Origin: a virus
IMG/VR virus record: IMGVR_UViG_3300034198_020104
Coordinates: 1-26,362 of that record
DNA length: 26,362 nucleotides
Reading direction: 5' to 3' (one strand)
Below are positions 3,783 to 23,234 of the stretch, piece after piece (within the stretch, counting starts at the first letter, position 1; every line of letters starts with the position of its first letter). The notes beneath the pieces were generated by a model. It was not told where the DNA came from, did not search any database, and saw nothing but the letters and a program-made list of their open reading frames with translations. Position numbers and translations under genes: made by a program.

Positions 3783-4247
3783 ATGAAAGGGAAACTACAT
3801 ACGATAGATTTCATAGAATACATTTCAAAACCAATGAAAAAGGATGATATTTTATTAATGTACAGGATTAATAATATTATTCCTGAACGTAGTGCTTTAT
3901 ATTTAGATTTTACACATTCATTATTTGATTTGGTGACTTCTACTTATTTAGGTGATGAAGTAATGAACGGTAATTCGGTTAAACAACATTTTGATTGGTG
4001 TTGGAAAAAAACGACTGATTCTTTTAAAAAAGAAAAAATATATTTTGAAAGTACTGAACTATACAATTATTTTTTCACATTATTTTTAGAATCTTTTTAT
4101 AGTGAAAATGATAAATCAGAAAAAAATGTTAACAAATTGTTAGAGTTTTGGCAAGATATATTTGTCTACTCAACTTCAAAAACCCTTTCAGAATTGGAGG
4201 CATTTATCGATTTATATAAAATTTTTGATAAATCTTTATCTAATTAG
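3783..4247 (+). CDS. hypothetical protein
   Basis: A 154-residue acidic, aromatic-rich protein, mainly helical by appearance (YLDFTHSLFDLVTSTYLGDE; LFLESFYSENDKSEKNVNKL). There is no signal peptide or recognised motif. It stands alone between the terminators at 3709 and 4259, with the AT-motif just upstream, which suggests its own transcript. Function unknown. Confidence 0.75.
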   Translation: MKGKLHTIDFIEYISKPMKKDDILLMYRINNIIPERSALYLDFTHSLFDLVTSTYLGDEVMNGNSVKQHFDWCWKKTTDSFKKEKIYFESTELYNYFFTLFLESFYSENDKSEKNVNKLLEFWQDIFVYSTSKTLSELEAFIDLYKIFDKSLSN

Positions 4248-4299: not shown

Positions 4300-4530
4300 A
4301 TGGACGTAAGAGTTTTAGATTTAGTAACCACAAGATATGTCGCTCGTAAATTAGCGATTGAAATGGACTTAGAAAATTTGATTAACAGTACCCCAACCAA
4401 CAAATCTAGTGCAGATTTTACCCAACAAATTATGGCTAAAACGACTGAATTAAGAAACATTGTTGCGGACTTTCAAACATGGGAAGGTATTGTCAATCAA
4501 CTAACAAAAACCCCTGAAGAAGGGAAATAA
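4300..4530 (+). CDS. small helical hypothetical protein
   Basis: A 76-residue protein with two apparent helices (VTTRYVARKLAIEMDLENLI and TQQIMAKTTELRNIVADFQ) separated by a Thr/Pro/Asn linker. No recognised domain. It is separated from the histone-like gene by 23 nt of A/T repeat (TAATAAATAAAATAAAT) that may act as a translation enhancer. It probably heads the run of small genes 4300-5936. Confidence 0.7.
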   Translation: MDVRVLDLVTTRYVARKLAIEMDLENLINSTPTNKSSADFTQQIMAKTTELRNIVADFQTWEGIVNQLTKTPEEGK

Positions 4531-4553: not shown

Positions 4554-4742
4554 ATGGAACAAAACAGTTTAGACAAATTGAAAACAATGGTTTCAGAATT
4601 TGAAGCTGATTTCACAAAATTTTCTGAAAAAGGTAATAAAGCTGCTGGTACTCGTGCTAGAAAAGCTTTACAAGAAATCAGAAATCTTGCAAAAGATATC
4701 AGAACTGAAATTAGTGATGCTAAGAAAAAAACAGCAGCGTAA
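4554..4742 (+). CDS. histone H1-like protein (Hc1 family)
   Basis: A 62-residue protein with the pattern of the short Bacteroidota/Chlamydia Hc1 family: an N-terminal amphipathic helix (LDKLKTMVSEFEADFTKF), then the hallmark KGNKAAGTRARKAL (about residues 27-40), then a Lys-rich C-terminus ending KKKTAA. Family members bind DNA without sequence specificity. In a phage it may coat phage or host DNA or be packaged, but that is inference. Its stop overlaps the next start (TAATG). The family assignment rests on motif recognition and is fairly firm. Confidence 0.8.
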   Translation: MEQNSLDKLKTMVSEFEADFTKFSEKGNKAAGTRARKALQEIRNLAKDIRTEISDAKKKTAA

Positions 4743-4948
4743 TGATTGAATCTCTTTTAAATAAAGTCTTATTCGTATTGTTTTTCATGTCTATCTTAAA
4801 CATATTAAGACACATATGGAAAGTCTTTATGATTTTGAGAAATGATAATATTCCTAATAAATATGAGCTTTCAAAACAAGAGCTCATATTTTTAGGTTTA
4901 TCTGTCGCTTATCTATTCACAACATTTTTTACAAAAATTTCACTATGA
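4742..4948 (+). CDS. small two-helix membrane protein
   Basis: A 68-residue protein with two hydrophobic segments (about residues 5-24 and 47-66) joined by a basic/polar loop (RHIWKVFMILRNDNIPNKYELS). The gene is coupled at both ends, by TAATG with the Hc1 gene and by an ATGA overlap with the next gene. No family recognised. A small two-span protein could be a holin-type or envelope-remodelling protein, but no lysin is nearby to support that. Confidence 0.7.
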   Translation: MIESLLNKVLFVLFFMSILNILRHIWKVFMILRNDNIPNKYELSKQELIFLGLSVAYLFTTFFTKISL

Positions 4949-5161: not shown

Positions 5162-5623
5162 ATGATACAAAAACGTTTTAACGAATTACAGCCTTACCTG
5201 AGAGGTGTAAAATTAGCAGGTGAATATTCAGTCGTAGAATGTATTTTAAAAAATACATGGAAGATTGATGGTTTAACTGCTGAAGGTGTTCAATATAAAT
5301 CTTCAGGTAAAGAATCTGAAGAACATAAAGGATATGTTGGCCATATGTTTTGGTCCGAAATGTCAATTGATGACTTAGTTGACAATGTAGAACTTGTTGT
5401 TAATGCTAACATAGAAATGGAACAAAAACAGGCACTTCTTCGTTCCAAAGTAGAAGAACTTAAAAAAATGTTTGAAGATAAGTCTTTAGATGAACTTAAA
5501 GCTTTAAAATTTAGTTCTGAAATGGAAGTAACACTTAAAGTTAATAAACCTGAACCACCTCCAACTAAAGTGGTTAAGGAAGGAGAATTACCTAAAACTA
5601 ATGGCGTTACCGAAAAAGTTTAA
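5162..5623 (+). CDS. hypothetical protein
   Basis: A 153-residue protein. The N-terminal part (residues 1-75) has beta character with conserved-looking aromatic residues (HKGYVGHMFWSEM); residues 80-120 look like a coiled coil (EMEQKQALLRSKVEELKKMF); the C-terminus is Pro/Lys-rich. No family recognised. It overlaps the next gene by 23 nt in a different frame, which suggests coupled translation. Confidence 0.7.
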   Translation: MIQKRFNELQPYLRGVKLAGEYSVVECILKNTWKIDGLTAEGVQYKSSGKESEEHKGYVGHMFWSEMSIDDLVDNVELVVNANIEMEQKQALLRSKVEELKKMFEDKSLDELKALKFSSEMEVTLKVNKPEPPPTKVVKEGELPKTNGVTEKV

Positions 5624-8016: not shown

Positions 8017-8264
8017 GTAATACTGTAATAAATAAAATAACAACTTTAAAAGAGTTTGTTGATTTTGCCTTTTCTCTCAAAGAAATGGAAGAAGTTAAAA
8101 AAGGTTTCCCAATACCGACTACAATTATTTTTACTTTAGAAAAAATAAATCACGAAAACTTACAAAAAGAAATCATAAAAGAAAAAAAGTTAACAACTAT
8201 AGAGTTAGTTGATGAATTCGAACTTAATTTGTATGGTATTAATTTTAAATTTTTATCCAAATGA
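8013..8264 (+). CDS. small hypothetical protein
   Basis: An 83-residue alpha/beta protein (TTLKEFVDFAFSLKEMEEVK, then FPIPTTIIFTLEKI). It is ATGA-coupled on both sides to its neighbours. No family recognised. Its place directly before RNase HII in a coupled unit suggests shared expression, not necessarily shared function. Confidence 0.65.
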   Translation: MSNTVINKITTLKEFVDFAFSLKEMEEVKKGFPIPTTIIFTLEKINHENLQKEIIKEKKLTTIELVDEFELNLYGINFKFLSK

Positions 8265-8842
8265 ATTTAAGACCTTACCTTGACGCAAACAATATCGAAG
8301 TAGGTATCGATGAAGCTGGTCGTGGATGTCTTGCAGGACCCGTTGTTTCTGCAGCTGTAATACTACCTAAAGACTTTGACCACCCAATTGTAAGAGACTC
8401 TAAGAAACTATCTGAAAAGAAGAGAAAAGAGGCTTATAAAATAATAGTTGAGAATGCTTTGAACTATTCGGTTTCTTTAGTTTTACCTGAAACAATTGAT
8501 AAGCTTAATATTCTACAGGCAACCATGTTATCTATGCATAATTGTTTGGATTATATGGAAGGTTTTAACCATATACTAGTAGACGGTAATTATTTTAACA
8601 AATATAAAGATATTCCACACACTTGTGTAATCAAAGGGGATAACACTTATTATTCAATAGCTGCAGCGTCTATTTTAGCTAAGGTTTCAAGAGATGAGTA
8701 TATGAAACAATTACATAACGAATTCCCAAAATATAAATGGGAAAGTAATAAAGGTTATGGTTCAGAAGAACATATTAATATGATTAAAGAAATCGGCATA
8801 ACCGAACATCATCGTAAATCATTTTTAAAGAATATCATTTAG
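8261..8842 (+). CDS. rnhB: ribonuclease HII
   Basis: 193 residues, the normal length for RNase HII (E. coli 198). The motif VGIDEAGRGCLAGP carries catalytic Asp17 and Glu18; VDGN gives Asp108; KGD gives Asp127; the SIAAASILAKVSRDEY and HHRKSF family motifs are also present. The enzyme cuts RNA in RNA-DNA hybrids and single ribonucleotides in duplex DNA, and can remove primers during phage replication. It is the last gene of the coupled unit 7380-8842. All catalytic residues are intact, so it should be active. Confidence 0.95.
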   Translation: MNLRPYLDANNIEVGIDEAGRGCLAGPVVSAAVILPKDFDHPIVRDSKKLSEKKRKEAYKIIVENALNYSVSLVLPETIDKLNILQATMLSMHNCLDYMEGFNHILVDGNYFNKYKDIPHTCVIKGDNTYYSIAAASILAKVSRDEYMKQLHNEFPKYKWESNKGYGSEEHINMIKEIGITEHHRKSFLKNII

Positions 8843-8872: not shown

Positions 8873-9316
8873 ATGGAGATACCAAAAGAAGTGTTAGATG
8901 ATATCATAGAATTTACCAATAGAAACTTTGAAAACTATGAAAGAGAACAATATCTTTCCGACAAAGAATTAGTGGAGTTAACAAATGAATTGTATGACAA
9001 TCAAAAAAAAGTTACCGTATTACAGAACCAATACGAAATTAAAGAAAAAGTTTTAAAATCTGAAAAACCATGGGTTTATCATACGTCTTTAAACATGAAT
9101 TGGGTTTTATTTTTCACATCTTCTTATCGTAAATTGTACCCATATTTGTGTGATGAAGAAAGAAATGAAACAAAACCTATTATAAAAAAAGTTAGACTTT
9201 TAAGAAAAGTTTTTAATCACGTTGACGGTATAGTCGAAGATGGGGATTTTGTTTATTTAATTAAAGATGACGTTAATTTAATCCAAACGGGGCTTAAAAA
9301 ATTTACCTTGAGTTAG
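8873..9316 (+). CDS. hypothetical protein
   Basis: 147 residues with an acidic helical N-terminus (EVLDDIIEFTNRNFENYERE), a heptad-like stretch (residues 40-65) and an aromatic middle (WVYHTSLNMNWVLFFTSSYR). No family recognised. Its 3' end overlaps the convergent - strand gene by 14 nt, with no terminator visible between them, so the two transcripts must be antisense at their ends. Confidence 0.7.
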   Translation: MEIPKEVLDDIIEFTNRNFENYEREQYLSDKELVELTNELYDNQKKVTVLQNQYEIKEKVLKSEKPWVYHTSLNMNWVLFFTSSYRKLYPYLCDEERNETKPIIKKVRLLRKVFNHVDGIVEDGDFVYLIKDDVNLIQTGLKKFTLS

Positions 9317-10999: not shown

Positions 11000-12226
11000 A
11001 TGAAAAAACAACAATTATTAAATGAAATCATGGGCGTACCAAAATCAGTGGATTTTTGGGTTGATTATTTTTCTTTAATTCTTTCTGGTATGGCAAAAGG
11101 TATCGTCAATCAAGACGAAATAGAAGAAAAAGACATGGCCTACCCAACTGAAGATGGTGAAGAAGTTGAAGGTAAAATTTACAGAGGTGCGACCAAAATG
11201 ACAGGCAAAGAATTCACCGATTGGGTTGTAAAATTAGGTGGGTATTCCGACTTAAAAGGTTTGATAAAAGATCCAAAATTTAAACAATTTCCTTTATATA
11301 ACCCAAAGGTAAAATTAGTACTAATGTTCTTCCCTAAAGAAGTTTTAGATAATGAAATAAAAAGTAGAACTGACGTACCTGATTTTGTTGAAGCTCACCA
11401 CGCTTTTGATATTTCAAAAAAGGCTATATCTAAATTAGGTCCTAATGAAATTTTTATAAACCAAGAGTTTGGGTTTACAGTTTATTTAACGCAAGACCAA
11501 TTAGATAATTTAGACCTTGAGGCATTCAAAAAAAGAATAAGACCAACAATAAGTCATGAATTAACTCATGCTTACGAGAATTATAATAGAATGAAAACAT
11601 CGGGTGATCCTTATCAAGGACGGGAAACAATGTTAAATGCGGCGGTCAAACTAATGGATGACAGCAAATACCCTCAATGGCGTGATTTCTTACATTTAAT
11701 TTATTTACACCTTGGATTTGAGATTAACGCTAGAATAACACAGTTTTATTATAGTATTAAAGACGAGGATATTACAACATCGGAACAGTTTATGAATATT
11801 CTTAAAAAATCTAGTGCTTGGAGAGAAGTCCAAATGTTAGAAAGTTTTAACGCTGACGAATTTATTAAAAGTTTTGGAATTAGAGGTTTAGATTTTTTTG
11901 AAATGATGGACGATATTGGTAAACAAATTGAAAGAACTCAACAAGGATTACCTTCAATCAAATCAACAAAATCACCTGAAGAAGGAATGAAACATTTAAT
12001 TAAAGGGTGGAATAGTGTTTTACAAATGTTAAATCAACAACTAATCCAAAGTGGTGTTTATAAAGGTAAATTGATGGATTTGGTTCCACAAAAAGCGATG
12101 AAAGACCCGTATGAGTTTTTTAAATTCTTTGAGAAAAGATTTCACAAAAAAGCTGACGGATTTAAAAGAAAATTATATAGAATATCAACTTTAGTTTTAG
12201 ATAAGAGTTTAATGGGTGAACAATAA
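11000..12226 (+). CDS. HExxH metallopeptidase-like protein
   Basis: 408 residues. HELTH at 186-190 (ISHELTHAYENYNRM) is the zinc-binding HExxH motif in its normal helical setting. A plausible third ligand lies in the helix with HLGFEINARI (about residues 237-246), as in gluzincins where Glu follows. There is no signal peptide, so it acts in the cytoplasm or in the virion. I chose the ATG at 11000 rather than the preceding in-frame TTG. It could be a structural-protein or host-protein protease, but the fold is not identified beyond the motif. It is 5 nt upstream of the exported-protein genes. Confidence 0.75.
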   Translation: MKKQQLLNEIMGVPKSVDFWVDYFSLILSGMAKGIVNQDEIEEKDMAYPTEDGEEVEGKIYRGATKMTGKEFTDWVVKLGGYSDLKGLIKDPKFKQFPLYNPKVKLVLMFFPKEVLDNEIKSRTDVPDFVEAHHAFDISKKAISKLGPNEIFINQEFGFTVYLTQDQLDNLDLEAFKKRIRPTISHELTHAYENYNRMKTSGDPYQGRETMLNAAVKLMDDSKYPQWRDFLHLIYLHLGFEINARITQFYYSIKDEDITTSEQFMNILKKSSAWREVQMLESFNADEFIKSFGIRGLDFFEMMDDIGKQIERTQQGLPSIKSTKSPEEGMKHLIKGWNSVLQMLNQQLIQSGVYKGKLMDLVPQKAMKDPYEFFKFFEKRFHKKADGFKRKLYRISTLVLDKSLMGEQ

Positions 12227-12852: not shown

Positions 12853-13422
12853 ATGAAAAAATTACTTACTATTTTGTTTATGTTTTTAGCAACACTTTCG
12901 TTTGCACAATTGACAACCACAAACCCCGATACCGTTTGTTATAACGCGACAGGTTCAATTTATCAGGTACCTTCTTTAGGTCCAGGTCATACTTATACAT
13001 GGACTGTTTCAGCTCCTGGTACTATAACTTCAGGTGTTGGCACAAATTCTATCACTGTTAATTGGAATACCCTTCCTCCTGGTTTAAACACAAACGCTGT
13101 AACTGTTTACGCGACAAATACTGCATCAGGATGTCAAAGCACACCAATAACATTAAATGTTTTTGTATTACAAATAGTGCCGACAATAACAGCAATAGGT
13201 CCTTTTTGTGCTGGTGCTCCATGTGTTAATTTAGTGGGTACACCGGCAGGTGGTACATGGTCAGGGACAGGAGTTGTCGGAAATCAATTTTGTCCTACAA
13301 CAAGTGGAACGGGTACTTTTAATATTACGTATACCATAACACAAAACGGCTGTACTTTTACAACGACCACAACGGTAACAGTAAGTCCAGCACCTGTATT
13401 AAGTCCAATCCAACACAACTAA
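12853..13422 (+). CDS. exported PKD/Ig-like protein
   Basis: 189 residues with signal peptide MKKLLTILFMFLATLSFAQ (residues 1-19). Two Ig/PKD-like domains follow: one with YTWTVSAPGTITSGVGTNSI (about 47-66) and one with GGTWSGTGVVGNQFCPTTSG (about 133-152), forms common in Bacteroidota extracellular proteins. It ends in LSPIQHN. The stop overlaps the next start (TAATG), tying it to the T9SS-sorted protein that follows. Likely exported to periplasm or surface; partner or ligand unknown. Confidence 0.8.
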   Translation: MKKLLTILFMFLATLSFAQLTTTNPDTVCYNATGSIYQVPSLGPGHTYTWTVSAPGTITSGVGTNSITVNWNTLPPGLNTNAVTVYATNTASGCQSTPITLNVFVLQIVPTITAIGPFCAGAPCVNLVGTPAGGTWSGTGVVGNQFCPTTSGTGTFNITYTITQNGCTFTTTTTVTVSPAPVLSPIQHN

Positions 13423-13973
13423 TGAAAAATTTATTTACGTTAGTATTTTTAATACTGGGTATAAACCTTAATGCTCAACAAATAGTTGAATTATGCCCTG
13501 AAACAACTACAACATTTACCTATAGTTCAAATGCTGGAGTAAATGGTATATATACTTGGACCGTTGGGCCTGATACTTTTGTTGGCAATCCTCTTACTTA
13601 CACATGGACCGAAGAAGGTCAATATAATATAAATTTATATTTTATTTCCGACCTTGGTTGTACCGATACAATATCTTATAATGTTTTAGTAATACCGTGT
13701 CAAGATACCTATGTTTATGTACCTAATTCTTTTACACCAAACGACGATGGATTAAATGATGTTTTTAACTTATATGGTTATAATTTTAGTAACCCAGAAA
13801 TTTTTATTTATAATCGTTGGGGTGAATTAATTTATAATTCCAAAAATCTCGGGTGGGATGGTACTTATAAAGGTAACCAATGTAAACAAGACGTTTACGT
13901 TTATATTGTTAGATGGGTTGACACTCGTGGTAAATTAAAACAGGTTGTTGGTCATTTAACACTTTTAAGATAA
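13422..13973 (+). CDS. exported protein with T9SS type B sorting domain (CHU_C/gliding-motility C-terminal domain)
   Basis: 183 residues. Signal peptide (MKNLFTLVFLILGINLNAQ), one PKD-like domain (GIYTWTVGPDTFVGN, then EGQYNINLYFISDLGC), and residues 100-183 form the gliding-motility-associated C-terminal domain: VPNSFTPNDDGLNDVF opening, IYNRWGELIY, WDGTYKG, VYVYIVRW and a terminal GHLTLLR. In Bacteroidota this domain directs secretion across the outer membrane by the type IX system. Finding it in a phage-like context implies use of the host T9SS during infection. Coupled by TAATG to the gene before. Confidence 0.9.
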   Translation: MKNLFTLVFLILGINLNAQQIVELCPETTTTFTYSSNAGVNGIYTWTVGPDTFVGNPLTYTWTEEGQYNINLYFISDLGCTDTISYNVLVIPCQDTYVYVPNSFTPNDDGLNDVFNLYGYNFSNPEIFIYNRWGELIYNSKNLGWDGTYKGNQCKQDVYVYIVRWVDTRGKLKQVVGHLTLLR

Positions 13974-15440: not shown

Positions 15441-15473
15441 TACAATATATATTGTATATAACCAATATACAAT
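15441..15473 (+). promoter_or_regulatory. overlapping inverted repeats at the start of the large exported gene
   Basis: A perfect 16-bp palindrome, TACAATATATATTGTA (15441-15456), overlaps a second inverted repeat, ATTGTATAT (15451-15459) with ATATACAAT (15465-15473), whose right arm includes the AT of the start codon at 15472. It could be a repressor operator or, in RNA, a hairpin that hides the start codon. Confidence 0.5.
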
Positions 15474-18400
15474 GAAAAAATTTTTATTAGGGATTCTAAC
15501 TGCAATAGTTGTAGTTTTTCCACACATTTCAAAATCACAAATAGGGGTAGGACCAGCACCATATTGTATGCCTGCATATGTAATGCAACCTTGTAATCAA
15601 TTTGGTCCTTCAAATGCACCAGGTAATTCTGTAAATGACTTTATTAATAGTTTTAATACAATTGGAGCATTAACTAACATTGTAAATAATAACTCAGGTT
15701 GTAATGCCCAAAATTTAGGAGGAACAAAAAACTATATGTTTTGGGGTTGCCAACACTACCTTAAAGTAAATCCAGGACAAGTAGTTACTTGCAATTTCCA
15801 ATCAGGTAATACATTTTCACAAGGTTTTGCTTTATTTGTAGATTGGAATAACAATGGTGTATTTAACTTACCAGCGGAAAGATTAATTGGAACTGGAATA
15901 CCACCCGCAGGAACATTTATATCAGGAAACTTTACAGTACCACCAACACAAGCACCTGGAGCATATAGATTGAGAGTTCGTTGTGTTTATTCTACTAGTG
16001 GTAATTTTATAGATCCTTGCAACACTTACACTTATGGTGAATGTGAAGACTATATGTTATATGTTGGTATTAACCCTCCAGGAACTGGAACAATAACATT
16101 AACTAGTAACTCACCTGTTTGTGTCGGCCAAGTAGTAAATATAAACACTACAATAACTGGAGGATCAGGAAATCCTAACACATACACCTATACTTGGTCA
16201 GGACCCAATGGATTCACAAGTAGTCAAATGAACCCCAGCTTTACAGCTACCTCAACAGCTATGAGCGGTATTTACACATTAAATATAGCTCCTGGAAATG
16301 GGTGTAATTCATCGGCTACAATACAAATATGGGTTAATCCAAATCCATCTACTTCAATTACAAACAATGGCCCTTTGTGTCAAGGAAGTAATGCTATATT
16401 TTTAAATACTATTTTAAGTAATGGTGTTGCAACTTATAATTGGACCGGCCCAAATGGCTTTACAAGTAATGTAGTATCTCCAACCATACCATCAGCACAA
16501 CCTTCAAATACTGGTACATACAATTTTACAATTGTGAGTACTTTTACAAATGGAGGTAGTTGTATTGTGACTTCAAATAGTAGTTTAGTGATAGTACCCG
16601 TATCTCAAGTATCTGTTACTCCTACTTACACTCAATGTCAAGGTACAAACATAAGTTTAAATGCAAATGTATTAGGAGCAAATTCATTTAGTTGGACTGG
16701 ACCAAACTATAGTAGTACACAACAAACCCCTATATTAACTTCTGTGACACCTACCAACTCAGGTAATTATTCAGTCACCGCCACATTTACAAGTCCTAGT
16801 ACTACATTAGTTTGTTCTTCAACAGCAGTATCAAATGTATCTGTTGTTCCAATGAATCCAGTTTCTATTACACCACCTCAAAATATTTGTCAAAATACAA
16901 ACCTATCAATAACAGCTACAGCAGCAGGAAATCCTAATTATGTTTGGACTGCTACAAATGGATTTACAGGAACATTACCTACATATACATTTAATGCTCA
17001 ATCAAGTACAACTGGAACTTATAGTGTATCAGCAGTGTTTAGTATTGGATCAGTTTCTTGTACAACTTATAACTCAACAAACATATCTGTAGTACCAGTT
17101 AGTTCTATAAACGTAGTCCCATTAATAAGTGTTTGTGAAAACGATAATGCTGTTTTGACAGCAACTGCTCAAGGAGCTATTTCATATACTTGGACAGGTC
17201 CAAACAACTTTAATATAGTACAGCCATTAACTTATTTTCAAAACCTGAATCCAAGCTGGAATGGAAATTACATAGTTACAGCCGCATTTACAAATGGAAA
17301 CTTAACTTGTTACAATACAAATACAACTACATTAGTTGTTAACCCTAAAATCAATTTCACACTAACTCCATACAACCAATTATGTTACAATAGTACTTAC
17401 AATGTATTGGGTCCGTTAGGTGGTTCTACATATACTTGGACTGGTCCTGGATATAACTCAAATACACAAAACTTATTTATACCTAACGTTAATTTATCAA
17501 ACGCAGGAACTTATAGTTTAGTTGTTGATTTAAACGGATGTAAAACTTATGGAAGTACAAATCTACAAGTACTTAATCCTATTGTTTGGCAAAACGTCCC
17601 TACGGATAAAACTTTATGTAAAGGGGATAGTTTTACTTTAACAGCACAAGCAGGTAATGGAAGTGGAAATTACGCTTACCATTGGGAACCTAGTGTTTAT
17701 TTAACTTCACCTAATGGTGGCATACAAACAGGTGTTGCCATGGGTACCATGATATATAATGTTAGTGTCTATGACGTATCTTGTCCGACTTATACAATAA
17801 ACACACCTGTTACACTTTCAGTAAATGTAGCTCCACAACCAACATTGAATTTAGATGTTAACAAAATTTGTGAACCATTTTGTTTTTTATACGATTCAAA
17901 AGTTAAAAACAAATCTAATCTTGTAAGTTATGATTTTAATGGTAAAACATTTATAGGTGATAGTATTAATATTTGTTTAAACGCGGGTTTTTATAATTTA
18001 AAAATTACTACCATAGGTAAAAATGGTTGCAAAGAAATTTTTAAATATGATAATATATTAACTGTACATCCAAAACCAAATGCTGACTTTACTTGGTTAC
18101 CCAATACACCAAATCATGTGTCAGATAATAAAGTTACTTTTTACCCGTTAGAACAATCAATGAAAATTGATGATTGGGTTTGGCAATTAACAAAGGACTC
18201 GACATCGACAATTAAAACCCCTGAACAAATTTATGAGACACCAGGTAACTACCCAATTAGTTTAATGTTGATAACTGAACATGGTTGTAAAGATACAGTG
18301 GTTAAAATTTTGACAATTGATGAAGAGTTATTAATTTGGGTACCTAATTCATTCTCACCTAACAGTGATGGTATAAATGAAACATTTAAACCAAAAGGTA

Positions 18401-18594
18401 GTGGAATAAAAAATTATGACATGGTGATTTTTGATCGTTGGGGCAGTATTATCCACAACACCCCAAATAAAGAATGGGATGGTACTTATAAAGGGGTTAT
18501 ATGTCAAGATGGAGTATATGTTTATAAAATCGTAATAACTGATGTTAAAGGTCTTAGACACGATTTTATTGGTCATGTCACTTTATTAAAATAA
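15472..18594 (+). CDS. large exported Ig-like repeat protein with GEVED and T9SS type B sorting domains
   Basis: 1040 residues. Signal peptide about 1-24 (KFLLGILTAIVVVFPHISKS). About 97-197 is a GEVED domain (ALFVDWNNNGVF, then a GECEDY ending at 189-194). About 205-720 holds at least six Ig/PKD-like repeats marked by YTWSGPNGF, YNWTGPNGF, FSWTGPNY, YVWTATNGF, YTWTGPNNF and YTWTGPGY. PKD-like domains follow, and residues 957-1040 are the gliding-motility-type T9SS sorting domain (VPNSFSPNSDGINETF, FDRWGSII, WDGTYKG, GHVTLLK). In Bacteroidota such proteins are surface adhesins; here the phage would rely on the host T9SS. Codon use differs before and after about 17570. Confidence 0.92.
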   Translation: MKKFLLGILTAIVVVFPHISKSQIGVGPAPYCMPAYVMQPCNQFGPSNAPGNSVNDFINSFNTIGALTNIVNNNSGCNAQNLGGTKNYMFWGCQHYLKVNPGQVVTCNFQSGNTFSQGFALFVDWNNNGVFNLPAERLIGTGIPPAGTFISGNFTVPPTQAPGAYRLRVRCVYSTSGNFIDPCNTYTYGECEDYMLYVGINPPGTGTITLTSNSPVCVGQVVNINTTITGGSGNPNTYTYTWSGPNGFTSSQMNPSFTATSTAMSGIYTLNIAPGNGCNSSATIQIWVNPNPSTSITNNGPLCQGSNAIFLNTILSNGVATYNWTGPNGFTSNVVSPTIPSAQPSNTGTYNFTIVSTFTNGGSCIVTSNSSLVIVPVSQVSVTPTYTQCQGTNISLNANVLGANSFSWTGPNYSSTQQTPILTSVTPTNSGNYSVTATFTSPSTTLVCSSTAVSNVSVVPMNPVSITPPQNICQNTNLSITATAAGNPNYVWTATNGFTGTLPTYTFNAQSSTTGTYSVSAVFSIGSVSCTTYNSTNISVVPVSSINVVPLISVCENDNAVLTATAQGAISYTWTGPNNFNIVQPLTYFQNLNPSWNGNYIVTAAFTNGNLTCYNTNTTTLVVNPKINFTLTPYNQLCYNSTYNVLGPLGGSTYTWTGPGYNSNTQNLFIPNVNLSNAGTYSLVVDLNGCKTYGSTNLQVLNPIVWQNVPTDKTLCKGDSFTLTAQAGNGSGNYAYHWEPSVYLTSPNGGIQTGVAMGTMIYNVSVYDVSCPTYTINTPVTLSVNVAPQPTLNLDVNKICEPFCFLYDSKVKNKSNLVSYDFNGKTFIGDSINICLNAGFYNLKITTIGKNGCKEIFKYDNILTVHPKPNADFTWLPNTPNHVSDNKVTFYPLEQSMKIDDWVWQLTKDSTSTIKTPEQIYETPGNYPISLMLITEHGCKDTVVKILTIDEELLIWVPNSFSPNSDGINETFKPKGSGIKNYDMVIFDRWGSIIHNTPNKEWDGTYKGVICQDGVYVYKIVITDVKGLRHDFIGHVTLLK

Positions 18595-19164: not shown

Positions 19165-19500
19165 ATGAAAGTAGCGGTAATAGGCAGTAGAACATTCAGT
19201 GATTATAGGTTGGTAAAAGAAACCTTATCAACGTTAGATATCACACTATTAGTATCTGGTGGGGCCATAGGGGCTGACTTACTAGGTGAACAATACGCAA
19301 AGTTAAATGAAATACCAACCAAGATTTTTTATCCTGATTGGAAAAAATATGGTAAAAAAGCGGGATTTATAAGAAACAGTGATATTATAAATGAATCGGA
19401 AATGGTAATAGCCTTTTGGGATGGTAAATCTAAGGGTACATTGGATTCGATTAAAAAAGCAGAAGAGTTAAATAAAAATATTTTAATAATTAAATTTTAA
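19165..19500 (+). CDS. SLOG-superfamily protein (DUF2493/YspA-like)
   Basis: 111 residues with the family signatures: MKVAVIGSRTFSDY at the start, VSGGAIGADLLGE (about 31-43), a PDWKKYGKKAGFIRN segment (about 58-72) and a terminal strand pattern. These are Rossmann-like nucleotide or ligand-binding proteins found in phages and in some defence systems; the ligand is unknown. It is 3 nt upstream of the Ro60 homologue, with an unusual leader only 11 nt after the terminator, and so is probably co-translated with it. No catalytic residues are defined. Confidence 0.8.
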   Translation: MKVAVIGSRTFSDYRLVKETLSTLDITLLVSGGAIGADLLGEQYAKLNEIPTKIFYPDWKKYGKKAGFIRNSDIINESEMVIAFWDGKSKGTLDSIKKAEELNKNILIIKF

Positions 19501-19503
19501 GTT

Positions 19504-21099
19504 ATGACAAAATTCAAATCAAAAGCAGTAGAAAATTTCGATGGTGGTATTTCTTATACCTTAAACCCACTTGATACTCTTCGTATCGTGGCAGCCTCAT
19601 CTATCTTCGGTGAACCTTCTTATTACAGAGGTTCTCATGACAAACCTTCAAACTTGTCAACTCTGAAAAGACACGACATTTTGGGTATGTATACCGACCC
19701 AAGTGAGACAACCACTGATGTTTTCACTAAGGCTATTGATGCCGCATTGGACTATGACTTCAAGGCAACCCTTGAATTCGCGGTTAAACTTCGTCATGAA
19801 ATGTTCATGAGACTTAACCCAGCGGTTATCTTCATTAGAGCATCTCAACACCCAAAGCGTGTTGAGTTTAATGAGGCCAACCCAGGTTTTATGAAGAAAA
19901 TTGGTATGGAAATCGTTGGTCGTCCTGATGATATCACCAATCAATTCGACTATTACATGTTCTTGAAGGGTTCTAAGAACAATCTCCCTTCAATCGTAAA
20001 ACGTACTTGGGCCGATAAGTTAGCTACTTTTGGGAGATACCAAATCCACAAGTACAAGTCAAAGTCATTAATTGACTTGGTACGTATTTCTCACGCTCAC
20101 TCAGAAGTAATTGACGAGTTAATGAAGAAAGGTGACGTGGCTGTTTCTGAAACGGAACAAACATGGGAGTCACTTAAGTCCCAAGGTAAAAATTGGAAGG
20201 AAATCCTTAACACAATTAAGGTTCCACACATGGCTCTTTTAAGAAACCTTCGTGGTATCTTTACTGAAGTGAACGATACTGAGTTGGCTAAGAAAGTTAT
20301 GGCCGACCTTAAAGGTGGTGTTCTTTACGGTAAACAATTTCCATTCCGTTACTACACGGCGTATAAGGAAATCGACAAGATTACCATCAACCATAAGGGT
20401 ATGATTCTTGACACTTTACAAGAGTGTTTGGATATCTCCCTAACAAACTTCCCTAAGTTAAAGGGTAAAGTGGCTTGTTTGTCTGATAACTCAGGTTCTT
20501 CTTGGGGTCAAATGACTTCTGAATACGGAAGTACACACATCGCAGAAATTGCAAACTTATCTTCTATCATCACGGCATTATGTTCTGATGAAGGATATGT
20601 TGGTGTTTTTGGTGAAAGATTAAGTTTAAAACCTGTTTCTAAAAGAGACGGTATTATCACTCAGTTGGAAGAAACTTGTAAAAGAGGTAAAGCACAAGGC
20701 CAATCTTGTGAACATGGAATTTGGTTGTTTTTACGTGAAGCAATTGACAATAAAGTTCACTATGATACAATCTTTATCTATAGTGATATGCAAGCAGGCA
20801 CAGGGAATTTGTACGGTACAAACATAAATCGTAATGATGTCCACGAAAATGGTGGTAACTACGTTGACGTACTTAAAATGGTGGAAGAATATCGTGAAAA
20901 GGTTAACTCAAAAGTTAATATATTTACAACCCAAGTTGCGGGTTACAATAACAGTTTAATACCTTGTAATCTTTATAGAGGTGGAATATTAACAGGTTGG
21001 ACTGGAAAAGAAGCGTTGTACGCTAGTGAATTAATCTCTGTTTGGGATGAAATCGAGACTAAGGTCGAAGTTGAAACCGAACAAGAAGTTCAGGCCTAA
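19504..21099 (+). CDS. Ro60-type TROVE and vWA domain protein
   Basis: 531 residues, the length of bacterial Ro (Rsr) proteins. The N-terminal two thirds is TROVE-like, with helical repeats (DAALDYDFKATLEFAVKLRH, TWESLKSQGKNWKEIL, LKGGVLYGKQFPFRYYTAY). The vWA domain starts near 322 with MIDAS DNSGS at 328-332 and a second Asp in IYSDMQAG (Asp428), so metal binding looks intact. Ro proteins bind Y RNAs and misfolded RNAs and work with PNPase. About the first 1000 bases have clearly more G/C-ending codons than the rest of the window, which may mean high expression or transfer. The RNA partner is likely the ncRNA just upstream. Confidence 0.88.
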   Translation: MTKFKSKAVENFDGGISYTLNPLDTLRIVAASSIFGEPSYYRGSHDKPSNLSTLKRHDILGMYTDPSETTTDVFTKAIDAALDYDFKATLEFAVKLRHEMFMRLNPAVIFIRASQHPKRVEFNEANPGFMKKIGMEIVGRPDDITNQFDYYMFLKGSKNNLPSIVKRTWADKLATFGRYQIHKYKSKSLIDLVRISHAHSEVIDELMKKGDVAVSETEQTWESLKSQGKNWKEILNTIKVPHMALLRNLRGIFTEVNDTELAKKVMADLKGGVLYGKQFPFRYYTAYKEIDKITINHKGMILDTLQECLDISLTNFPKLKGKVACLSDNSGSSWGQMTSEYGSTHIAEIANLSSIITALCSDEGYVGVFGERLSLKPVSKRDGIITQLEETCKRGKAQGQSCEHGIWLFLREAIDNKVHYDTIFIYSDMQAGTGNLYGTNINRNDVHENGGNYVDVLKMVEEYREKVNSKVNIFTTQVAGYNNSLIPCNLYRGGILTGWTGKEALYASELISVWDEIETKVEVETEQEVQA

Positions 21100-21621: not shown

Positions 21622-22356
21622 ATGGATAATATTATAAAGTTCATTACTAGAGAAGTAAAGGCGAACACAATTTTTACTATAAAATTAATTGATAAAAAAA
21701 TTGCTTACGATTTTGTTAAAACCTATCATTACTTAGGTGAGGCTAAATTCTTTGCTAAATTTTCTTTTGGCTTATACCATAAGGAAACAAACGAATTAAT
21801 GGGTGTAACTACCTTTAGTAATCCACAAGGTAATGTGGCACTTAAAGGTTGGTTTGGGTTAGAAAACTCAGACCAAACAGTAATGGAACTTAGTAGACTA
21901 TGTGTATTACCTGATTTAAACGGTACTAATGCAACTTCCTACCTTTTAGGTAATAGTATAAGGTTATTGAAAAAAGAAGGTATTAGAGCAGTTATAACTT
22001 TAGCTGACGATAGTCGACATAATGGAAGTATCTACCAAGTTTGTAACTTTAGATACTATGGTTTAACTGATAAGAAGTCAGACTTTTTCCACTTTAATGA
22101 AAATGGTGAATGGAAAGTTAACCCAAGGGGACCGACAAAAGATAAGCAAGGTGTTTGGATTAATCGGACTCAAAAACATAGATACGCTTATATTATCGAC
22201 GAAACTTTAAAATGTTTGTATGAACAACAATCTTATCCGAAAAAAACGGACACTAAACAATACGATTGTTGTGGTAGTACAAAAATCGTAAAAGATAAAC
22301 GTTTTAATATTGATTATCCTTGTCCTAAGTGTACAGTTTCAATGGAAGTTGAGTAA
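21622..22356 (+). CDS. Mom-like acyltransferase with C-terminal zinc ribbon
   Basis: 244 residues. A GNAT-type fold is suggested by LMGVTTFSNPQG (59-70), VMELSRLCVLPDLNGTNATS (87-106) and the helix/strand LLKKEGIRAVITLADDSRHN (115-134), closing with GSIYQVCNFRYYGLT (135-149). The ELSRL-(x)-V...NATS/(A)ES and D..H.GSIYQ..NF.Y.G pattern is that of the phage Mu Mom family, which modifies adenine N6 in phage DNA. Residues about 217-240 hold four Cys (CC, CPKC), a probable zinc ribbon absent in Mu Mom. DNA modification is inferred, not shown. A stop overlaps the AT-motif at 22354. Confidence 0.72.
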   Translation: MDNIIKFITREVKANTIFTIKLIDKKIAYDFVKTYHYLGEAKFFAKFSFGLYHKETNELMGVTTFSNPQGNVALKGWFGLENSDQTVMELSRLCVLPDLNGTNATSYLLGNSIRLLKKEGIRAVITLADDSRHNGSIYQVCNFRYYGLTDKKSDFFHFNENGEWKVNPRGPTKDKQGVWINRTQKHRYAYIIDETLKCLYEQQSYPKKTDTKQYDCCGSTKIVKDKRFNIDYPCPKCTVSMEVE

Positions 22357-22368: not shown

Positions 22369-22596
22369 ATGGTGATTGAGAAAGATATTAGGGTACATGA
22401 TTTTTTAAGGGGTGGACCTAAGTGGCGTATTATACTTGGGAGTAAAGGTCAACCTTTTCTTAACCCTGGATATACTTGGGCACCTTATATAATGAGTGTT
22501 GACTTTGTGACAGATTTCCAACCTAGACAGGGTATGTTATCAAGATACGGAATTAATACCATAAATAACGGATACTATAGTACAATTACGTTATGA
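22369..22596 (+). CDS. gp23 C-terminus-like small protein
   Basis: 75 residues. The second half, YTWAPYIMSVDFVTDFQPRQ and MLSRYGINTINN, matches the C-terminal signature of T4-type major capsid proteins (gp23: APY, then FQP, a Gly, and TRYG). The whole ORF is far shorter than gp23 (about 520 residues), so it represents only that block. It overlaps the next ORF by 4 nt (ATGA), and that ORF carries further gp23-like blocks. It may be a split or recruited capsid segment. Motif similarity is from memory of gp23; the assignment to a function is open. Confidence 0.6.
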   Translation: MVIEKDIRVHDFLRGGPKWRIILGSKGQPFLNPGYTWAPYIMSVDFVTDFQPRQGMLSRYGINTINNGYYSTITL

Positions 22597-23234
22597 TTAG
22601 TAAATCAGTACCTGGATTTTGTTTTGTCGACCCAACAAATAAAGAAACTATTAATATAAGATTTACTTCAGTTAATGTTGTTGGTGAAACTCGTAGAATT
22701 AGAGCTGTATGGACTCCTGAAATGGCACAAGACATAACTGCTTTTCATAATATAGATGCTGAGGCTGAATTAACTGCTTTACTGACTGAAAATATAAGAA
22801 ACGAAATTGACCAACAAATACTCCGAGATTTACATGACAATCAAAGGTTTTACAACAACAATAGACAAGAAGAAATTTTTAACAGATGGAACCAAATCGG
22901 TGGTAATATTTTAAATCAAGGTTATAGAGCCCCACAAGATAATAATCAACCTGATTTTGGGAATATCATGTTGCCTATAGCTAGAAGAGTTGCTGTACAA
23001 ACAATGGGTTTAGATTTAGTTACAGTACAACCATTGGAACCACCGACAGGGGGTCTTTTAGAGTTTTTAGATTACAATCAATACTTTACCGACAGTAATT
23101 ATATTTCATTACCTAACGAAGAAGGTTGGTATACAAAAGGTATATTTGAATCTATATTGATTAAAATTGATATGTTACCATTTAAATTTATACCTAAACG
23201 TAAATCTCGTAGAAGAAGAGACCAAAACGGTTAG
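22593..23234 (+). CDS. protein with gp23-like middle and N-terminal blocks in swapped order
   Basis: 213 residues. Residues about 27-75, with RIRAVWTPEMAQDITAFHNI and AEAELTALLTENIRNEIDQQ, match the gp23 core (T4: LKAQYTLELAQDLKAVHG...DAELSGILATEI..EINRE). Residues about 125-160, with MLPIARRVAVQTMGLDLVTV and QPLEPPTGGLLEF, match the N-terminal gp23 block (MVRR...D(I/L)..VQPM..PTG). In gp23 this N-terminal block comes first. The C-terminus is very basic (PKRKSRRRRDQNG). The order C-block, core, N-block across the two ORFs is the reverse of gp23. Role unknown: decoration, scaffold or rearranged capsid relic. Confidence 0.65.
   Translation: MISKSVPGFCFVDPTNKETINIRFTSVNVVGETRRIRAVWTPEMAQDITAFHNIDAEAELTALLTENIRNEIDQQILRDLHDNQRFYNNNRQEEIFNRWNQIGGNILNQGYRAPQDNNQPDFGNIMLPIARRVAVQTMGLDLVTVQPLEPPTGGLLEFLDYNQYFTDSNYISLPNEEGWYTKGIFESILIKIDMLPFKFIPKRKSRRRRDQNG

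Follow-up and report, generated by a model that had tools for sequence, protein, structure and literature searches.

In Chlamydia, Hc1 is described as a DNA-binding protein that condenses the nucleoid (PMC2848022; PMC12619734). The first of these sources assigns the binding to the C-terminal domain, and gives the N-terminal domain as the one reported to mediate dimerisation (PMC2848022). Phages also carry the family: moraphages, which are jumbo phages with predicted Bacteroidota hosts, have PF07432 in four complete genomes published in November 2025, and the authors suggest that it may compact the genome as it is packaged and, arguing by analogy, shut down the host (PMC12619734). Short Hc1 proteins occur as well in Lak phages and in Synechococcus phage S-SRM01, both large phages. 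Finally, Bacteroidota themselves encode a short Hc1 (PF07432), mostly 57–64 amino acids long in the copies read, which spans the full profile, bears the same signature as the protein described below, and mostly lacks a long tail.

We analysed a 26,362-base virus record (hereafter the window, meaning the whole stretch of DNA), which held one Hc1 match in its entire length. The gene lies on the plus strand at 4554–4742, with an ATG start, a TAA stop and 62 codons, and is a short form without the C-terminal lysine-rich domain. A Pfam search (hmmscan) matched the 62-amino acid protein to PF07432 (Hc1) at E 8.2e-23, with 80.5 bits versus a cut-off of 23.5. The alignment covered protein residues 5–59 and profile positions 3–57 of 57, i.e., the profile's full length, and the protein thus belongs to the Pfam family. 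The sequence-only reading had proposed an Hc1-type histone-like protein, to be abandoned if no profile matched; the family identity was upheld, whereas the roles that it suggested, namely compacting phage DNA, mimicking the host chromatin protein or silencing host genes, are putative. Five further Pfam rows were all under their own cut-offs (the top one, EzrA, reached 18.6 bits versus 39.6), and nothing convincing came from a PHROGs profile search (best E 0.013). The chlamydial model, NCBIfam NF051889 (HctA), scored 18.8 bits versus a cut-off of 100, placing the protein outside that family, and the match was limited to the N-terminal half (protein 6–59 on model 7–59 of 121). That is, the window Hc1 resembles chlamydial HctA in its N-terminal domain, but lacks the C-terminal half that is reported to bind DNA. 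It is like the short Hc1 of Bacteroidota, except that it is phage-carried and its neighbours are lineage-specific. Its identity to the Lak and S-SRM01 copies is 45–51%, and these occupy different places in the tree. With moraphages, compared by description only, the common features are a PF07432 protein encoded by a phage, a large genome, hosts predicted to be Bacteroidota and, in some moraphages, DnaJ (PMC12619734).

An AlphaFold2 monomer model of the protein was a helical hairpin (mean pLDDT 93.7, pTM 0.75). The predicted helix 1 comprises residues 5–26 (4566–4631, plus strand), and the predicted helix 2 comprises residues 29–61 (4638–4736, plus strand) and bears R34, R36, K37 and R50. The signature KGNKAAGTRARKAL (residues 26–39; 4629–4670, plus strand) sits at the hairpin turn. 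Residues R34, R36 and R50 were invariant in all 104 phage and all 72 cellular copies; K37 was conserved in 102/104 phage and 72/72 cellular copies, and T33 in 102/104 and 70/72, respectively. All five residues were invariant in a narrower alignment of 32 rows. The window Hc1 has a pI of 9.6 and a net charge of +4, distributed as −2 in residues 1–24, +1 in 25–32, +4 in 33–50 and +1 in 51–62. Past residue 53 there is only SDAKKKTAA, which is not a lysine-rich C-terminal DNA-binding domain. Tails of at least 20 residues beyond the position of residue 53 were seen in one of the 104 phage copies (L048, lysine-alanine-rich with four acidic residues) and in 14 of the 72 cellular copies; in 13 of these the tail is of a common Polynucleobacter type and not rich in lysine, and in the other one (L135) it is alanine-lysine-rich. 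We rejected the idea of a fold relative informative on function, because none of 101 PDB matches and none of 251 viral structure matches to the model reached E ≤ 0.001; the best solved structure stood at E 0.51. Klosneuvirus KNV1 supplied the second-ranked viral structure match, a 131-amino acid protein (26% identity, E 0.15, probability 1.00); the match is not significant, but a giant-virus protein of the Hc1 type would deserve attention.

The gene is kept in the lineage to which the window belongs. Hc1 held its position in all ten syntenic contigs (L002–L011), which have a common gene block on both sides, and identity to the window copy in the best segment ranged from 91% down to 60%. Because these contigs had been found through Hc1 itself, retention was retested through two further block genes, one of 154 amino acids at 3783 (5 loci) and one of 221 amino acids at 9303 (7 loci). 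Nine of the 12 loci spanned the site and all nine had Hc1; they come from seven contigs, of which L170 (Hc1 39% identical) and L177 (63%) were new. Three contigs (L171–L173) ended before the Hc1 site, and their records of 17–32 kb hold no Hc1. Altogether, Hc1 was at the same place in 12/12 related contigs spanning the site, two of which were found via other genes. Nei-Gojobori comparisons of the window gene with four relatives (ungapped pairs, without a significance test) gave dN/dS of ~0.06–0.25, the dN and dS pairs being 0.085/0.335 for L002, 0.034/0.527 for L003, 0.127/0.516 for L005 and 0.129/0.577 for L007. Judged from these sequences, the gene is more than a chance frame and appears to be under purifying selection.

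We also looked at genes beside Hc1 in eight other phage contigs. The ten proteins were picked by eye without a background rate, from a neighbour view that did not include rows from about L068 to L076; the results are examples and not statistics. Five of the ten were DNA-metabolism genes, one each in five contigs: a DnaB-type helicase (L042) and an SbcC-like protein (L062) directly upstream of Hc1, a single-strand binding protein directly downstream (L017), and a thymidylate synthase (L033) and an exonuclease (L165) one ORF away. The Hc1 copies of L062 and L165 are sisters in the tree. Three of the remaining proteins were baseplate genes, all around Hc1 in L031, and the others were a cytidyltransferase-like protein (L048) and a radical-SAM protein (L056).

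With moderate confidence, we read the window Hc1 as a small protein of the nucleoid-associated type that is produced during infection. Its 62 residues are predicted to fold into the helical hairpin, and this would probably dimerise by analogy with the equivalent chlamydial domain; the title of the primary paper on that dimerisation speaks of a ‘potential’ dimerisation site. As the protein lacks a C-terminal DNA-binding domain of the chlamydial type, the hairpin itself must account for any DNA binding; we infer that it would use the basic residues at and after the turn, with R34, R36, K37 and R50 lying close to the turn or along helix 2. Bound Hc1 may then bridge or coat phage DNA, or alter transcription of the host nucleoid, while the phage replicates; both the target DNA and the timing of expression are putative. 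The full PF07432 match, the hairpin model, the invariant arginines, the pI, the DNA-metabolism neighbours, the signs of selection and retention, and the DNA binding and nucleoid condensation described for chlamydial Hc1 all support this reading. Against it stand the missing C-terminal domain, the net charge of only +4, the mixed neighbours elsewhere (baseplate, cytidyltransferase-like, radical-SAM), the window's own immediate neighbours, which are unassigned proteins and a membrane-type protein, and the lack of a solved structure or significant fold match. A limited literature search found no paper testing DNA binding or function of a short Hc1 without the chlamydial tail.

The same structural results can be read in another way, with the hairpin as a protein-protein adaptor that binds no DNA and a family name inherited from Chlamydia. 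The absence of the chlamydial nucleic-acid-binding domain fits this, as do the weak structural matches, which are helical hairpins of various kinds and include several designed oligomers. We nevertheless consider the adaptor unlikely, given that the invariant residues are arginines, for which a purely structural hairpin has no obvious need.

Short Hc1 proteins are widely distributed. Hc1 scored above the cut-off in 148 of 247 sampled genomes of Bacteroidota (the phylum of the genome titled Bacteroidetes), in agreement with the earlier suggestion that the short type is common there. A phage copy is also less unusual than that suggestion implied: one scan of IMG/VR confirmed at least 584 Hc1 stretches from 599 candidates and another at least 515 from 600 candidates, and phage Hc1 had already been published (PMC12619734). 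Among 50,697 phage records, 23 gave a tblastn match at E ≤ 1, namely 15 Lak records, two S-SRM01 records, three uncultured huge phages, one marine virus and two records of Rabbitrun. Gordonia phage Rabbitrun (annotated as Lsr2-like, 37% identity by tblastn) was dropped, as its locus (L163) did not match the Hc1 profile built here, and it is left out of every Hc1 tree and count. From 178 fetched phage loci, a profile search yielded 104 distinct Hc1 proteins of 56–79 residues, taking the start codon nearest the profile match. The S-SRM01 copy is annotated as histone H1 (L161, 7983–8171), and ~3 kb away the same phage has a Dps-type gene (DNA starvation/stationary phase protection; 11229–11663). 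In another virus record, of 289 kb, two Hc1 genes lie in tandem (L077, 9962–10439), the second strongly diverged.

The window Hc1 is related, by sequence comparison, to copies in Bacteroidota and neighbouring phyla. Our unrooted tree had 121 rows (49 phage, the window included, and 72 cellular) and 65 columns; it was made before the 104 distinct phage proteins were collected, and L170 and L177 were left out. So short an alignment leaves many forks open (50 of 116 inner branches); the bootstrap had not settled, and several branches are long. An AU test on the 49 phage versus 72 cellular rows rejected a single phage origin of Hc1 (p = 0.000265). The phage or cell label required eight changes on the tree, at least three of them forced by starred branches. 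Because the sampled phage copies do not form one clade, the gene probably moved between cells and phages more than once in the sampled set; the tree being unrooted, we infer the direction of any transfer. A starred clade (100/99) united the Lak phage copy with three copies from Bacteroidota. An unstarred branch (90/86) separated the nine rows of the window lineage, together with the very long second copy of L077, from Bacteroidota, Balneolota, Planctomycetota and other rows.

These results bear on whether the protein targets the host, mixing with the host's short Hc1 as a putative partner or dominant-negative and thereby changing nucleoid structure or transcription. The many Bacteroidota genomes with Hc1 would supply such a partner, which has the same domain and a similar length, and the grouping of the Lak copy with Bacteroidota copies is as expected of a host-matched protein. 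Moreover, the domain kept is the one reported to dimerise (PMC2848022). The tree rows nearest to the window copy, however, are all phage copies, and targeting of the host seems improbable for the window Hc1.

The gene is phage-borne, as the sequence-only reading had held: the window is a virus record, and T4-type head genes occur in its relatives. One of these, G003 (318 kb, the record that contains L007), had matches to Portal_T4 (3.5e-76) and Gp23 (5.9e-63). A T4-type portal was not found in the six other lineage records searched, all of which are shorter than G003, and Gp23 was found in 5/11 lineage records. Taking a T4-type portal plus Gp23 in the lineage as the mark of a T4-related jumbo phage, the lineage qualifies through G003, and the window has a Gp23-like piece. 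Megablast of window positions 1–25000 (of 26362) returned no near-identical INPHARED record; a 409-amino acid window protein matched one huge-phage record at 27% identity (LR745206), which also has Hc1. Besides DnaJ, the window encodes two proteins (13422–13973 and 15472–18594) that combine CHU_C type IX secretion domains with PKD-like or GEVED domains, and the CHU_C domain presumably points to a Bacteroidota host. We concluded that the window is probably part of a large phage of Bacteroidota. The CHU_C proteins were present in L003/L004 and L171–L173 and were not found in L006 or L008–L011, loci that run beyond the neighbouring DnaJ gene.

Several other features of the window were recorded. 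The T4 Gp23 pieces lie at 22369–23234, where a 213-amino acid frame matches only profile positions 132–196 and a 75-amino acid frame weakly matches a major head family (E 0.09). In the relatives G262 and G263 the Gp23 pieces are in permuted order (303–354, 132–196, 4–38), and G003 also has Gp23 in normal order; from sequence, the window pieces look like a rearranged capsid paralogue. A SLOG/YspA-type gene directly precedes a gene for a TROVE/Ro60-like RNA-binding protein (19165–21099), the latter 87% identical in L008, and a Mom-family DNA modification protein (PF25680, 97.9 bits) is encoded at 21622–22356. The 461-amino acid protein at 1124–2509 has DUF4314 at its start and no family match in the remainder. 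No tool named the protein at 8261–8842, whose PHROG has no assigned function; from its sequence it resembles an RNase HII.

Packaging of Hc1 in the virion, where it would help condense a large genome in the capsid, is a further putative role. Besides the baseplate genes around Hc1 in L031, L032 appears similar, and baseplate genes are usually late. The moraphage paper likewise proposes compaction during packaging (PMC12619734). On the other side, in the four records that yielded both, Hc1 and the T4-type portal are ~35 to 181 kb apart on the contig, and we regard a virion role as quite unlikely.

In the window itself, Hc1 belongs to a run of plus-strand genes. Upstream are a 154-amino acid gene (3783–4247) and a 76-amino acid gene (4300–4530, an ORF in the same gene run), neither with a family assignment; the smaller protein had no Pfam, PHROGs or NCBIfam match at E ≤ 1, and its gene was detected by tblastn in five of the ten syntenic contigs, with ORFs of 75–80 amino acids at its position in L007, L009, L010 and L011. 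Downstream, a 68-amino acid protein with two hydrophobic segments (4742–4948) has an ATG that shares one base with the Hc1 stop (TAATG), and a 153-amino acid gene without family assignment follows (5162–5623), syntenic in 10/10 contigs. Among 107 loci, tblastn detected the 68-amino acid protein only in L002–L011. In all 11 distinct lineage members, the window included, the gene that follows either overlaps the Hc1 stop or begins at most four bases beyond it, and in the ten others its product has 60–73 amino acids and two hydrophobic segments. We then asked for an ATG at −30 to +40 bases from the Hc1 stop, a length of 40–120 amino acids and a 17-residue window of mean hydropathy ≥ 1.6, leaving aside three of the 104 phage copies that were too close to a contig end. 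Such an ORF followed Hc1 in 11 of 101 distinct phage copies, ten in the window lineage and one in L220, whose 43-amino acid candidate was the only one among the 91 others, and we rejected the idea that Hc1 is generally paired with a membrane protein. Pairing within the lineage, in which the hairpin would bind phage DNA and the adjoining membrane-type protein would anchor it at the membrane as a minimal tethering or partition device, is very improbable.

Phage-encoded Hc1 is already known, with similar speculation on its role in the moraphage paper (PMC12619734), and the window is a further instance; no other report was apparent in a limited literature search. Our analysis contributes the observation that the tail is missing, a test of retention, evidence that the gene was transferred several times, and a neighbour specific to the lineage. 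It also corrects an easy over-reading, in which a match to the Hc1 family is taken as DNA compaction; the match alone does not imply this, since the protein lacks the region to which DNA binding is attributed in Chlamydia. Bacteroidota and viral contigs commonly have short, tail-less Hc1, and the phages that keep it offer small, tractable test cases.
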